NCBI GenBank assembly: GCA_031272765.1
Contig: JAISTD010000117.1
Coordinates: 1-37,323, forward strand
DNA: 37,323 nt
Direction: 5' to 3'
Source of the DNA: Candidatus Methanovirga australis
GTDB lineage: Archaea > Methanobacteriota > Methanobacteria > Methanobacteriales > Methanobacteriaceae
Below the pieces are notes generated by a model. The model saw only the letters and a program-made list of their open reading frames with translations, was not told the DNA's origin and did no database searches. Below are positions 2,241 to 28,961 of this stretch, piece by piece. The number at the start of each line of letters is the position of its first letter. Within the stretch, counting starts at the first letter, position 1. The position numbers and the translations under genes were made by a program.

Positions 2241-2658
2241 AAAGTCCAATTATAATATTTTATCTAACTTTATTAACATATTTGTAAAATATTTGATTTT
2301 ATAAGTTAGAAAAATGAAGTTTTTCTTTATAGTCCTTGATATTAATAATTTAATTAATAAATTTTTCATATAATCTTTTATTGGTTAAAATTTATTTTTA
2401 ACTTAGAAGAATTTATTCTCTGTTTGAAAATATCATTATATATGACTTATTTCATTATTAAATAATTATAAAATTAATTACATCAATAAATACACTATTT
2501 AATTAAATAAAACTTAAAATAAAATAATATTATATTTATTTAAAAAGTCTATTACTTAAAAAAAAAACATGTCAAGGACTATAATAAAGTTTTTAACAAC
2601 ATGTTATAAAAGTTTTGTTAAGTACTATATAACAGAAGATTAAAAATTGGTTAAAAAT
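2241..2658. other. AT-rich gap with a possible MITE (perfect 12-bp inverted repeat)
   Basis: No coding frame is visible. TATAGTCCTTGA at 2328-2339 is matched by its perfect reverse complement at 2572-2583, enclosing about 230 bases of AT-rich sequence. The flanks just outside the arms are also alike, so this may be a miniature inverted-repeat element or the ends of a deleted insertion sequence. A TATA-like ctatata at 2625-2631 lies about 28 bases before the ATG at 2659 and could give a nearly leaderless transcript. Confidence 0.5.
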
Positions 2659-3447
2659 ATGAATGAAATAGATAAACAGATATTAAAATCATTGAAATAC
2701 TTTGGATTAACAGAGTATGAAGCTTCAACATATTTAACCCTGAATTATATGATTTCAGGAACTGCAGCCGAGATAAGTGAAAATTCAAAAGTTCCAAGAT
2801 CAAAAATATATGAGATATTAAAACTTTTAGATAAAAAAGGTTTTATTGAAGTGAAAAACGGAAGACCTTTAAAATATAGTGTTATTTCTCCTATGAACAT
2901 ATTCCGAACAAATAAGAATAAAATAATCAGTGAGTTAGAAGAAAGTGAGAAGAATTTAAATGAAATATATGATAATCAGCTTTCAAAGATTCCTGCACCA
3001 GTTTGGTTAATTTATGGAAAAGATAAAATAATAGAAAAAGAGTTGGACTTAATATCTAATGCAAGAAATACAATAGCTATTAGGATAGGATTTATATTTG
3101 ATAATGAATGGAAAAAATTAGAGTATAAAATTAATCAAAAGATTCAAGAAGGAGTAGAAGTTAAAATTATGGTAAATGAAACTTTTAATTTAAATAATAA
3201 AAAAATAAGAAGTGAGGACTTATTAAAGCATTCTAAAGCAAAAATATCTAAATTCAACTTACCTACAGCAAAAATGATTATAAAAGATGGGAAGGAGATG
3301 ATGCATATTTTCTCAAAATTCAATGTTAATGAACCAGATCCTGAAACAGCCATTGGAATCTGGAACAAATATGAAGATATCGCTAAAAATTATCATGATA
3401 GATTTGAAATATCTTGGAACAAGAGAAGTAATATGATGAAAAAATAA
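2659..3447 (+). CDS. TrmB-family transcriptional regulator
   Basis: The predicted protein has 262 residues. The first 75 or so form a winged helix-turn-helix of the TrmB type (PF01978): LTEYEASTYLTL, then SKVPRSKIYEILKLLDKKGFI and a basic wing. The remaining part, including WLIYGKDKIIEKELDLIS, resembles the C-terminal effector or phospholipase-D-like region of TrmB-like regulators. TrmB proteins are sugar- or metabolite-responsive archaeal regulators; the ligand here is unknown. I chose the ATG at 2659 rather than the TTG at 2647, because a TATA-like box lies at the leaderless distance. The gene is followed by an ATPase gene whose promoter is flanked by two matching palindromes, the obvious candidate targets for this regulator. 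Confidence 0.85.
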   Translation: MNEIDKQILKSLKYFGLTEYEASTYLTLNYMISGTAAEISENSKVPRSKIYEILKLLDKKGFIEVKNGRPLKYSVISPMNIFRTNKNKIISELEESEKNLNEIYDNQLSKIPAPVWLIYGKDKIIEKELDLISNARNTIAIRIGFIFDNEWKKLEYKINQKIQEGVEVKIMVNETFNLNNKKIRSEDLLKHSKAKISKFNLPTAKMIIKDGKEMMHIFSKFNVNEPDPETAIGIWNKYEDIAKNYHDRFEISWNKRSNMMKK

Positions 3448-3479
3448 AGATAATAAAACAGATATTAATTTGTAATAGC

Positions 3480-3542
3480 TATTCTAAAATAGAACACATA
3501 CTCAAAAAAATATATTTATAATAACTATTCTAAAATAGAATA
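3480..3542 (+). promoter_or_regulatory. Twin palindromic operators bracketing a TATA box
   Basis: TATTCTAAAATAGAACA at 3480-3496 and TATTCTAAAATAGAATA at 3526-3542 share the palindrome ATTCTA-AAA-TAGAAT; the second is perfect. They lie 46 bp apart, centre to centre. A TATA-like tatatttata at 3511-3520 sits between them, so transcription would start near the second site. This arrangement fits repression of the ATPase gene by a dimeric regulator, probably the TrmB-like protein encoded just upstream. Confidence 0.65.
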
Positions 3543-3599
3543 TTATATGCTTAATAAGAATCATTAAAAAATAGAGTTGAAAATTATGAGCAGTTTAGC

Positions 3600-4776
3600 A
3601 TGGGAACTGAATCAAATATAAGTGATGAAAAATTTTACAATCGTAAAAATGAGATTACATTACTAAAAAAACTATTAAGTACACTTGAAGAAAATTCATC
3701 ACCAGCAATTATGTTATCAGGAATTAGAGGTGTTGGAAAAACATCTTTACTCAAAAAAATTAAAAATGAAATGGAAAAAGATTATTTAATAGATTATATA
3801 GACTTAACATGTATAGACATATATCAAACAGGCAAATTAACAAAAATAGACTTGATAAATGAATTTTATAAAGTTTGGATGGAAACAATTAATAATAATG
3901 GATTAAAAACAATTATTAACAAAATTAAAAAATATTTTAAAACTAAAAATTTCAAAATTAAAGAAATTATATCAACTGAAGGATATCCAATACCACTCAT
4001 TGAAACAAAAGATAACTATAAAAAACTTTCAGATTTTGTTTTAGAATTACCACAGAAAATATATGAACAAGAAAACAATGGAATTAAAGGAGTTATAATG
4101 ATTATTGACGAATTTCAAGCTTTAAAAGACTTAGCTAATGATTTAGATAATTTTTTATGGCTTTTTAGAAGTGTTATCCAGAATCAGAGAAATGTTGCTT
4201 ATATATTTTCAGGATCTATAAGTTCAAGAGATGATATGATTGAAAAAATAGCTGGTAGAAAAGGTGCTTTCGGAGGCAGAATGCTAACAATAGAAATAAA
4301 TCCTTTTACTAAAGATACTGTTTATAAATACTTAAAGGAGAAATTACCATCATTAATCTTTGAAGAAGATGGATTTGAAAGATTTTACAAGTGTACAAGA
4401 GGAATACCTCACTATGTAAATACTTTTGCTCAATTACTGGAAAAAAATACTCCTTTAGATGATAAAAAGATAAAAAAAGAATTTCAAAACTTGCTACCAT
4501 TTTTTGCAATTCATTTGATAAATTTATGGAGTGATTTAACTTTACGTGAGCAGAAAATAGTTACAAGCCTTAGTGAAGGATCTCTTGAAAGAAAAAAAAT
4601 AGCAGAAAAATTAATATAACTTCAAGTTAAGTATGCCACTTAAAAAATTATTAAATGAAGGCTTAATTGAATATGAAGACAAAGGTGTGTATGCGATTAG
4701 TGAACCTATACTTAAAGAATGGTTAAAACAAGAGTACGAAAACAAAGGAATTTATCCTTACAGAAGTTTGACATGA
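3600..4776 (+). pseudogene. Archaeal ATPase (AAA, MarR-like wHTH tail) gene with a single-base frameshift
   Basis: The first frame gives 339 residues of an archaeal-type P-loop ATPase (PF01637 family): Walker A GIRGVGKTS at residues 41-49, Walker B VIMIIDEF at about 165-172, and a sensor-like AYIFSGS near 200. The frame ends at 4617-4619, in the middle of the C-terminal winged helix. The expected remainder continues in the next frame up to TGA at 4774-4776, ending KGIYPYRSLT, and includes LKKLLNEGLIEYEDKGVYAI. Removing one base near 4612-4614 restores a continuous protein of about 392 residues. This is a recent inactivating indel, a phase-variable site or a sequencing error. The role of these ATPases is unclear. 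The upstream TrmB gene and operators suggest a regulated two-gene unit. Confidence 0.75.
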
Positions 4777-8577: not shown

Positions 8578-9592
8578 AATTATCAGTGAAAATGATTATA
8601 CATAAATAAACAAAATATACTTTAATAAAATATTATTAAAAAATTATTCATCAAGTTGTTTAAATTTTAAGAATTAATTCAGCTAAAGTATCTGGTACAA
8701 TATAATTTTTTTATTTATATATTCTTTTAATTCAATTTTCTTTAATTCAATTTTCTTTAATTCAATTAATTAGATATAATTCTAAATTTTAATGTGATTA
8801 AAAAAAATCTAATTTTTAATATTAATTAAAATATATATTGTTTTATATAGTTTGTAATATAAATACTTCAAATCCTAAGCAGAGAATAAAAAGCATCGAG
8901 AGACTGTTGCAAAATTATTTTTGTTTAATTAATATTTAAATTAAATAATAGTTAACATGTAAATTTTTAATTACTGAAAATCCTTTGGATTACTGAAAAT
9001 CCTTTGGATTACTGAAAATCCTTTGGATTACTGAAAATCGAAGATTTTCATAATTACAAAAATCGAAGATTTTTGGTAATTTTCATAATTACAAAACTCT
9101 TTGATTTTTGGTAATTAATAATAATTTTTAATAATATTTTATTAAGATACATATTGTTCATTGAAAATAAAATTGTGTAGCAAGATCATCAAGGAAAAAT
9201 CTTAAGATTATTAATTAATTAAATGATTATTTTGATTTGAATTTTCAATATAAATGAGTTAATTATTTTAATAGTTCCAGTATCAATTTAAATCTGCCAA
9301 TTATAACATTCTTGTTTTAATTAAGTCAAAATAAAAAAATATTTATATACGCACCATATAATCCATAGCAAGTAATAATAAATTAAATAAAGTATTACTA
9401 TTCTACAGATATTCAATTGAAAAGTAATACTCAATTTTGATGTAGAAATATAGCAATCGAAGAGAATTAGTGTATAAAAAACAGTGCCCAGTAATTATAA
9501 TGTGTTTTGATAATTCAATTCCTTTTAAAAAGTTATATGCTCTCAATAAAATATAAAAAATAGATATCAATAATGAAGACATTGGTGAATAT
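8578..9592. other. 1-kb intergenic region with repeat element and long leader of the acetyltransferase gene
   Basis: No gene is visible. It contains the intergenic repeat at 8970-9116 and a TATA-like aatatttatatac near 9340-9352, about 240 bases before the next ATG. If that box is used, the acetyltransferase mRNA would have an unusually long leader. The rest is AT-rich with no recognisable RNA gene. Confidence 0.45.
8970..9116 (-). repeat. Intergenic repeat element, second copy (reverse), with a 19-bp tandem array
   Basis: attactgaaaatcctttgg is repeated exactly at 8970-8988, 8989-9007 and 9008-9026, followed by a divergent unit attactgaaaatcgaagat and a hairpin-rich segment (tttcataattacaaaaatcgaa and so on) to 9116. 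Reverse-complemented, this last part matches 190-260 closely. Thus one element occurs in inverted orientation near both ends of the left third of the window, with the tandem unit differing (17 versus 19 bp). Confidence 0.85.
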
Positions 9593-19803: not shown

Positions 19804-20712
19804 ATGATGCTAAATAAATATAGTAAAGTTGAAGATACATTCTTTGAAGCATTTAATGGGATTTATACAAGGTTACTTATAACAGCTGATGATGAAGATA
19901 TTTTAAAACAGGCGGCCTATGATTCTACAGCCACACCTGGAGCTGTTATTGGAAGAATTGAAGGTGGAGTTGAGGGATTTGTTAGTGAAGATAAGACTCC
20001 AGATAATAGGGTTGGTGCTGTTGCTCAATACTGGTTTAATTCTAAGGATTTAGAGAGATTTGAAATTGAATTGTCTTATAGAATTCGTCAAGATATTCTT
20101 GTTAAACCATTTACATCTGTTTTTAATTTTACTTCTAATCATAATGGGTTTATTGGTATGATGAAATATGTTGGCAATTGTGGTGATGGTTTTCAGTGGG
20201 AAGAGAAAATTGGTGATAGAAATATGATTAATGTTCCTATAGCTGTTCCAGATTTTAAAATAGAATCAGAAATAGCTTATTCTAAGGGGATTATGGGAGC
20301 TAATTTTTGGTATATGTGCAATGATAAAAATGCTGTTGTTGAAGCTGGAAAGATAGCTATTGAAGCTATTAGTAATATTGAAGGTGTTATAACTCCTTTT
20401 GGAATATGTTCAGCTGCTTCTAAGGTCGAAACTAATTATCCTTGGATTGGTCCTACAACTAACCATCCTTATTGTCCTTCACTCAAAGAAAGACTTCGCA
20501 ATGAATCTAAAGTTCCTGATGATGTTAAATATATTCCTGAGATTGTTATAAATGGGATTAATAAGAAGGTTATTTTTGAAGCTGTTAAAATAGCTATTGA
20601 TTCTATTGTTGATAGAGAAGATATTGTAAAGATTTCAGCGGGGAATTTTAATGGTGAATTAGGTAACTATAAATTTAAATTGTTGGATATTTTAAATACA
20701 TATAAAATATAG
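19804..20712 (+). CDS. ftr: Formylmethanofuran-tetrahydromethanopterin formyltransferase
   Basis: Ftr moves the formyl group from formylmethanofuran to tetrahydromethanopterin, the second step of methanogenesis from CO2; it is a soluble cytoplasmic enzyme. The 302 residues show the family pattern: VEDTFFEAFNGIYTRLLITA at the start, the acidic GGVEGFVSEDKTPDNRVGA, KYVGNCGDGFQWEEKIG, and GICSAASKVETNYPWIGPTTNHPYCPSL near residues 205-232. Methanobacteriales usually have more than one Ftr; several positions differ from what I recall of the main enzyme, so this may be the second paralogue. The two ATGs at 19804 and 19807 are not distinguishable. No other methanogenesis gene is adjacent. Confidence 0.88.
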   Translation: MMLNKYSKVEDTFFEAFNGIYTRLLITADDEDILKQAAYDSTATPGAVIGRIEGGVEGFVSEDKTPDNRVGAVAQYWFNSKDLERFEIELSYRIRQDILVKPFTSVFNFTSNHNGFIGMMKYVGNCGDGFQWEEKIGDRNMINVPIAVPDFKIESEIAYSKGIMGANFWYMCNDKNAVVEAGKIAIEAISNIEGVITPFGICSAASKVETNYPWIGPTTNHPYCPSLKERLRNESKVPDDVKYIPEIVINGINKKVIFEAVKIAIDSIVDREDIVKISAGNFNGELGNYKFKLLDILNTYKI

Positions 20713-28776: not shown

Positions 28777-28961
28777 AATTTCATTCCCTAAATTCTTCAT
28801 GCCTTCGAAACCTATTAACTTGTTTAATATATGCCAAAGTGCAAATTCATTCCCTAAATTCCTCATGCCTTCGGAACAACAGAAATTTCATTCCCTAAAT
28901 TTCTCGCTTTGTTCGAAACAACGAGAATTTCATTCCCTAAGTTCCTCATGTCTTCGGAACC
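28777..28961. repeat. Four degenerate copies of a 36-bp repeat
   Basis: The core attccctaaattcctcatg, then ccttcggaac, appears at 28777-28812, 28843-28877, 28884-28922 and 28926-28961. Spacers are 30, about 6 and about 3 bases, and each copy has changes. The unit has imperfect inverted symmetry (ttcc...ggaa). It lies between serS and the unknown gene at 27741. Confidence 0.8.

Follow-up and report, generated by a model that had tools for sequence, protein, structure and literature searches.

Operator arrays bound by the product of the gene that they control are already known, as are AAA+/winged-helix ATPases of the fold described below. Archaea commonly carry ATPases of this superfamily, most of them with no known role; for the nearest described proteins, SSO1545 (2fna) and PABY2304 (2qen), we know of no reported operator array. 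Iterons are direct repeats of about 20 bp found on plasmids, centromere systems pair an NTPase with repeats, and TrmB-family proteins are binders of palindromes. Among the signal-transduction ATPases, the ATPase domain of IniR has been likened to SSO1545 (PMC5760070).

The locus considered here lies in a 37,323-nt stretch of DNA, referred to as a whole as the window; the source organism is a termite-gut-type methanogen. The palindrome ATTCTAAAATAGAA occurs at 3481–3494 and again at 3527–3540. The two centres (3488 and 3534) are 46 bp apart and flank a TATA box, TATATTTATA (3511–3520, + strand), which is preceded by a BRE-like run of A. The earlier note had described this arrangement, its position directly after a TrmB-family gene, and the lack of any further copy in the window. 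These observations are borne out: the gene ends at 3447 and the palindromes begin at 3480, and the nearest approach to the exact 14-mer elsewhere in the window, ATTTTAAAATAGAAT at 20252, carries one mismatch. The upstream palindrome (TATTCTAAAATAGAACA, 3480–3496, no strand assigned) contains one imperfect pair, visible in the 15-mer as a single outer mismatch (...GAAC). The downstream copy is a perfect 15-mer and extends to the perfect 17-bp palindrome TATTCTAAAATAGAATA (3526–3542, no strand assigned), which, judged from the TATA spacing, should cover the transcription start.

Both palindromes sit within a larger direct repeat of 46 bp, a tandem operator array of 1.6 copies at 3468–3540 (+ strand), as seen from self-comparison and from comparison with the closest relative, genome G002. 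At period 46, the self-comparison score is 22, against a maximum of 13.5 over 20 shuffles. The closest named relatives of the adjoining ATPase come from Candidatus Methanovirga procula (G002) and Ca. M. aequatorialis (G001). The G002 allele has one extra 45-bp unit; each full unit holds both a palindrome and a TATA box, and in G001 and G002 too the TATA box lies inside the array units.

Across the 2.44-Mb genome, the exact 14-mer is found at these two sites only, and its backwards control gives no hit. The looser motif ATTCTA-N3-TAGAA is present at control level (10 strand-hits versus 8 for the reversed motif), and thus the signal is a local pair rather than a dispersed motif. Confinement to this promoter, which the earlier note proposed to check, holds in this genome for the exact sequence and not for the loose one. 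A genome-wide regulon was considered and rejected: of two other full palindromes, one is intragenic and the other lies within a longer, different palindrome.

Several other repeats were seen in the course of the analysis. A 17-bp tandem repeat, AATCTTCGATTTTCAGT, occurs four times at 225–292 of the window, and ATTACTGAAAATCCTTTGG / AAAATCGAAGATTTT repeats lie on the other strand at 8970–9116, about 8.7 kb away; both apparently belong to one dispersed intergenic family, inverted around the region. The gene at 603–2240 encodes a PF09820 AAA-ATPase with a C-terminal PDDEXK_9 nuclease domain and has tandem repeats about 310 bp upstream, and arrays may thus occur in other AAA families too. At 28846–28960, a 42-bp tandem repeat (TTCATTCCCTAAATTCCTCATGTCTTCGGAAC..., 2.8 copies) has a G+C content above that of its surroundings. 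Elsewhere (L055, around 1612; G000:C205), the 27-bp palindrome GTTCGTATTCTATGGTAGAATACGAAC lies just downstream of a TATA-like sequence and is a candidate for another operator, with a single, different, and longer site.

The ATPase gene downstream of the array (3586–4776, + strand, from alignment to the G002 ortholog) is disrupted. Its largest open frame (3600–4619, + strand, 339 residues) covers the AAA+ part without the winged-helix recognition helix, and the rest of the winged-helix domain follows in a shifted frame at 4633–4776 (+ strand). Alignment with the G002 ortholog shows single-base deletions near 3602 and 4611 and a four-base deletion near 4626, which break the frame towards both ends of the gene; in relatives, most copies stay open for about 390–414 residues. 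Consensus error is less likely given that one gap comprises four bases, and this deletion likewise rules out homopolymer losses as the only source of the breaks. The array and ATPase of the window are probably a recent relic of an ATPase–array unit.

Against PF01637 (ATPase_2, the SSO1545-like archaeal AAA+ ATPases), the window copy scores 58.6 bits and the G002 ortholog 65.3, both above the gathering threshold of 33.2. The Walker A and Walker B motifs are conserved, with invariant residues G46, R48, G51, K52, D175, and E176. The C-terminal winged helix, out of frame in the window copy, is recognised by Pfam in full-length homologs. With 40 homologs as input, AlphaFold2 predicts for the G002 sequence an AAA+/winged-helix fold (mean pLDDT 87), with helices at 320–328, 336–343, and 347–359 and a wing at 363–373. 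The best fold matches of the model are 2fna (SSO1545) and 2qen (PABY2304), followed by the origin-bound Cdc6/Orc1 heterodimer 2qby (chain A, E = 5e-10), with which it shares the AAA+ plus winged-helix fold. Between G001 and G002, the ATPase has a dN/dS of 0.12, indicating purifying selection.

The TrmB-family gene on the other side of the array (2659–3447, + strand) is probably not the cognate regulator. Its open reading frame was called at 2647–3447 with a TTG start, and the relatives begin at the ATG at 2659. The product scores above the cut-offs of both PF01978 (71.3 bits; cut-off 25.6) and PF11495 (24.5 bits; cut-off 22.2), and falls far short of the NCBIfam equivalog cut-offs for TrmB, TrmBL1, and TrmBL2, the best score being 78 bits against 650. 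It is a conserved ortholog, found in 52 of the 61 genomes tested; in this same set, the ATPase occurs in 28. Of the genomes in which both genes are covered, only that of the window and G002 have them side by side. The G001 ATPase (85% identical, on contig C3) has two exact copies of the palindrome upstream, spaced 46 bp, whereas the TrmB gene is on contig C173, where the palindromes are absent; DNA similarity between C3 and the window is limited to the array and the ATPase gene. A further genome, G003, has the TrmB gene (76% identical) and lacks both ATPase and palindrome, and G004 has a single isolated exact 14-mer elsewhere, which is about the level expected by chance from base composition. 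A comparison of TrmB promoters across the genus revealed no common palindrome.

Because the TrmB gene is conserved without the palindromes, and because the two lie on separate contigs in G001, assignment of the array to TrmB does not hold, and it is the ATPase that the palindromes accompany. The earlier note had proposed a dedicated regulator–operator pair: the operator pair at the ATPase promoter is well supported, and its pairing with TrmB is not. The conservation in relatives on which that proposal turned was found between palindromes and ATPase, in G001 away from TrmB, and not between palindromes and TrmB. The nearest regulator gene, as this case warns, need not be the one to which an operator belongs.

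Two features of the surrounding DNA were also recorded. The ends of G002 contigs C129 and C169 (L060 and L089) have a common TrmB tail and a short stretch beyond it, and then diverge, one contig continuing into the ATPase array and cysK and the other into unrelated DNA; that the assembly forks exactly at the start of the ATPase unit suggests a variable site. Upstream of another TrmB ortholog (L094), an AT-rich repeat of 15 bp (TTAATTAATAGATAT type) is present almost 30 times.

Arrays of this kind recur upstream of most ATPase homologs. A score threshold was passed by 84 of 104 upstream regions, and the best period was 44–48 in 60 of the 104, compared with 6 of 163 other genes at the same loci (Fisher 3e-24); at least two of those six re-detect ATPase arrays already counted, through an overlapping or divergent frame. 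The 104 regions include at least three duplicate entries, for which counts clustered at 60% protein identity (single linkage) correct: 26 of 29 clusters have an array, 19 of them at period 44–48 and five at 28 or 63–66. A fresh set of unseen regions gave the same picture (16 of 21 passed, all 16 with period 44–48). TrmB upstream regions passed in 3 of 17 cases, the one whose period is 45 being a simple repeat of 15 bp. Around 10%–20% of ATPase homologs have no clear array. In one genome (G036), two 45-bp tandem arrays of different make-up (L078, reverse complement 3804–3922; L050, 9323–9437) precede a rubrerythrin-like gene and a second gene rather than the start of an ATPase gene.

The letters of the arrays vary and the spacing does not. 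Unit sequences are unrelated between paralogs, with recurring 6-mers such as TAATCA, AACTAG, GTATAC, ATAATG, and TCCAAA, and the geometry is fixed across homologs at 18–19, 28, 44–48, and 64–65 bp. Pooled autocorrelation peaks at 45–47, 28, 18–19, 64–65, 56, and 90–94; since 18 + 28 = 46 and 46 + 18 = 64, site-to-site distances alternate between about 18 and 28 bp. Palindromes with perfect 7-bp arms occur 2.05 times per 220 bp, roughly ninefold the 0.23 of shuffled sequence. The median distance from the 3′ end of the array to the start codon is 44 bp, which places the array over the promoter; in G001, the array is about 280–360 bp upstream of the start codon, and hence promoter geometry is not fixed there. 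Most ATPase homologs in gut methanogens thus have a private palindrome array over their promoter, with its own letters and a common spacing. That the geometry stays constant while the letters change points to a protein assembly whose dimensions are fixed and whose DNA-reading part varies.

The arrays also follow the protein. Array similarity rises with protein identity, from 0.04 at 30%–40% to 0.44 above 80%, and tracks identity of the winged helix over that of the AAA+ part (partial r 0.21 versus 0.10); these correlations, uncorrected for phylogeny, are modest, and the related sequences behind them are not independent. Orthogonality, in which paralogs of the same genome would avoid each other's sites, was tested and showed no effect. 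A survey of 96 genomes of the phylum placed full-length members in Methanobacteriaceae alone, with only partial matches in the sister family. Copies per genome range from 0 to 11 and are dispersed, and broken copies are frequent. A 56% identical ATPase occurs on a contig labelled as a Bacteroidota MAG (L112, JARKQC010000033.1), which is probably a misbinned methanogen contig.

We consider it reasonably probable that these palindromes serve the ATPase gene as its self-operator, with the ATPase binding its own array through the C-terminal winged helix and autoregulating. In such a mechanism, ATPase dimers would bind the palindromes through this domain, and contacts between neighbouring AAA+ protomers would set the 18–19/28/46-bp spacing. 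Distances of 46, 28, and 18 bp correspond to non-integer numbers of helical turns, and simple stacking of dimers on the same face of the DNA thus fails to explain them. The nucleotide state (ATP) may control cooperative assembly. With sites on both sides of the TATA box and over the predicted start in the window, the assembled ATPase would keep the basal factors from binding and thereby repress its own gene. The different locus of ATPase and array in G001 counts as support for this reading, as does the lack of any other conserved neighbour; the non-integer spacing, the distant array of G001, the homologs with no clear array, and the loss of the winged-helix frame from the window copy count against it.

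A bolder form of this proposal is conceivable, if doubtful: that the ATPases, a large Orc-like AAA+/winged-helix family of gut methanogens, each with its own fast-diverging, geometrically fixed array, would form self-specific nucleoprotein assemblies (filaments or rings), and that these would act not simply as repressors but as heritable switches between on and off, or as small mobile units under their own control.

It is unlikely that the ATPase–array complex serves some purpose in place of, or in addition to, autoregulation, be it partition (centromere-like segregation), defence (phage sensing), or a signal switch (bistable expression). The patchy distribution with many broken copies, the presence of STAND-like proteins among the fold matches, and the likeness to centromere systems would suit such a role, as would a match to the PADLOC defence candidate PDC-S27, which is weak (47 bits) and belongs to a model with no curated cut-off. 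Against it, no partner gene recurs beside the ATPase homologs, nor did the viral contigs and phage records searched reveal a mobile replicon.

Rather unlikely, too, is an iteron-like origin, in which the ATPase would act as initiator in the manner of Orc1/Cdc6, and the array would be an origin of replication or the remnant of an integrated replicon. The Orc-like fold and the AT-rich direct repeats beside the gene are consistent with an origin, and one degenerate, broken homolog is carried on a Methanosphaera plasmid. An iteron replicon is a replicating element with replicon genes, however, and here up to 11 dispersed copies per genome have no recurrent neighbours, and no replicon genes recur near them. 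The arrays lie near the start codon, over the promoter; the ATPase scores 28 bits against the Orc1/Cdc6 model TIGR02928 (cut-off 181.3); and the viral contigs and phage records searched yielded no ATPase relative, with PHROGs giving weak, general ATPase matches only.

That the ATPase binds its array is an inference, and an unlinked regulator could in principle bind instead, with the ATPase as a mere target; this is very unlikely, given that the sites differ between paralogs of one genome, so that one common regulator would hardly read them all, and that site similarity follows the ATPase protein. Least probable by far is the binding of both palindromes, and control of the ATPase, by the TrmB-family protein: its adjacency in the window and G002 and the palindrome binding of its family speak for it, but the ortholog occurs mostly without ATPase and palindromes in relatives—a distribution on which it was rejected as the cognate regulator—and some 100 homologs of the ATPase gene have arrays whose sequences are unrelated and no TrmB gene adjacent, although that gene is conserved.

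The consistent coupling of this subfamily to private arrays provides a testable handle on these ATPases, as each gene predicts its own DNA target. Around 100 natural protein/array pairs are available from which to approach winged-helix site choice and the basis of the 18/28/46-bp lattice. In the open-access literature searched, no systematic coupling of this ATPase subfamily to private arrays on a common lattice was found.

Of the known systems, TrmB, TrmBL1, and TrmBL2 share a superfamily with the neighbour gene, which differs in lying far below their equivalog cut-offs and in being unlinked to the palindromes. MalT and IniR-type signal-transduction ATPases likewise combine an NTPase with a C-terminal DNA-binding domain, whereas the ATPase here is without a MalT-like middle domain. 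If the self-operator model holds, the arrays resemble those of iteron plasmids under Rep autoregulation, with short repeats before a gene that are bound by its own product; here, however, the sites are palindromic, spaced at 18/28/46 bp, and chromosomal, and the protein is an AAA+ ATPase. Orc1/Cdc6 proteins with their ORB repeats are alike in joining AAA+ to a winged helix, in having repeats near the gene, and in providing the third fold match, but their model is far from matched, and the arrays described here are specific to each gene, sit on promoters, and number many per chromosome. Closest are SSO1545 and PABY2304, archaeal AAA+ proteins of PF01637 with the same domain order and whole-chain fold, from which the ATPase differs in sequence, at about 20% identity.
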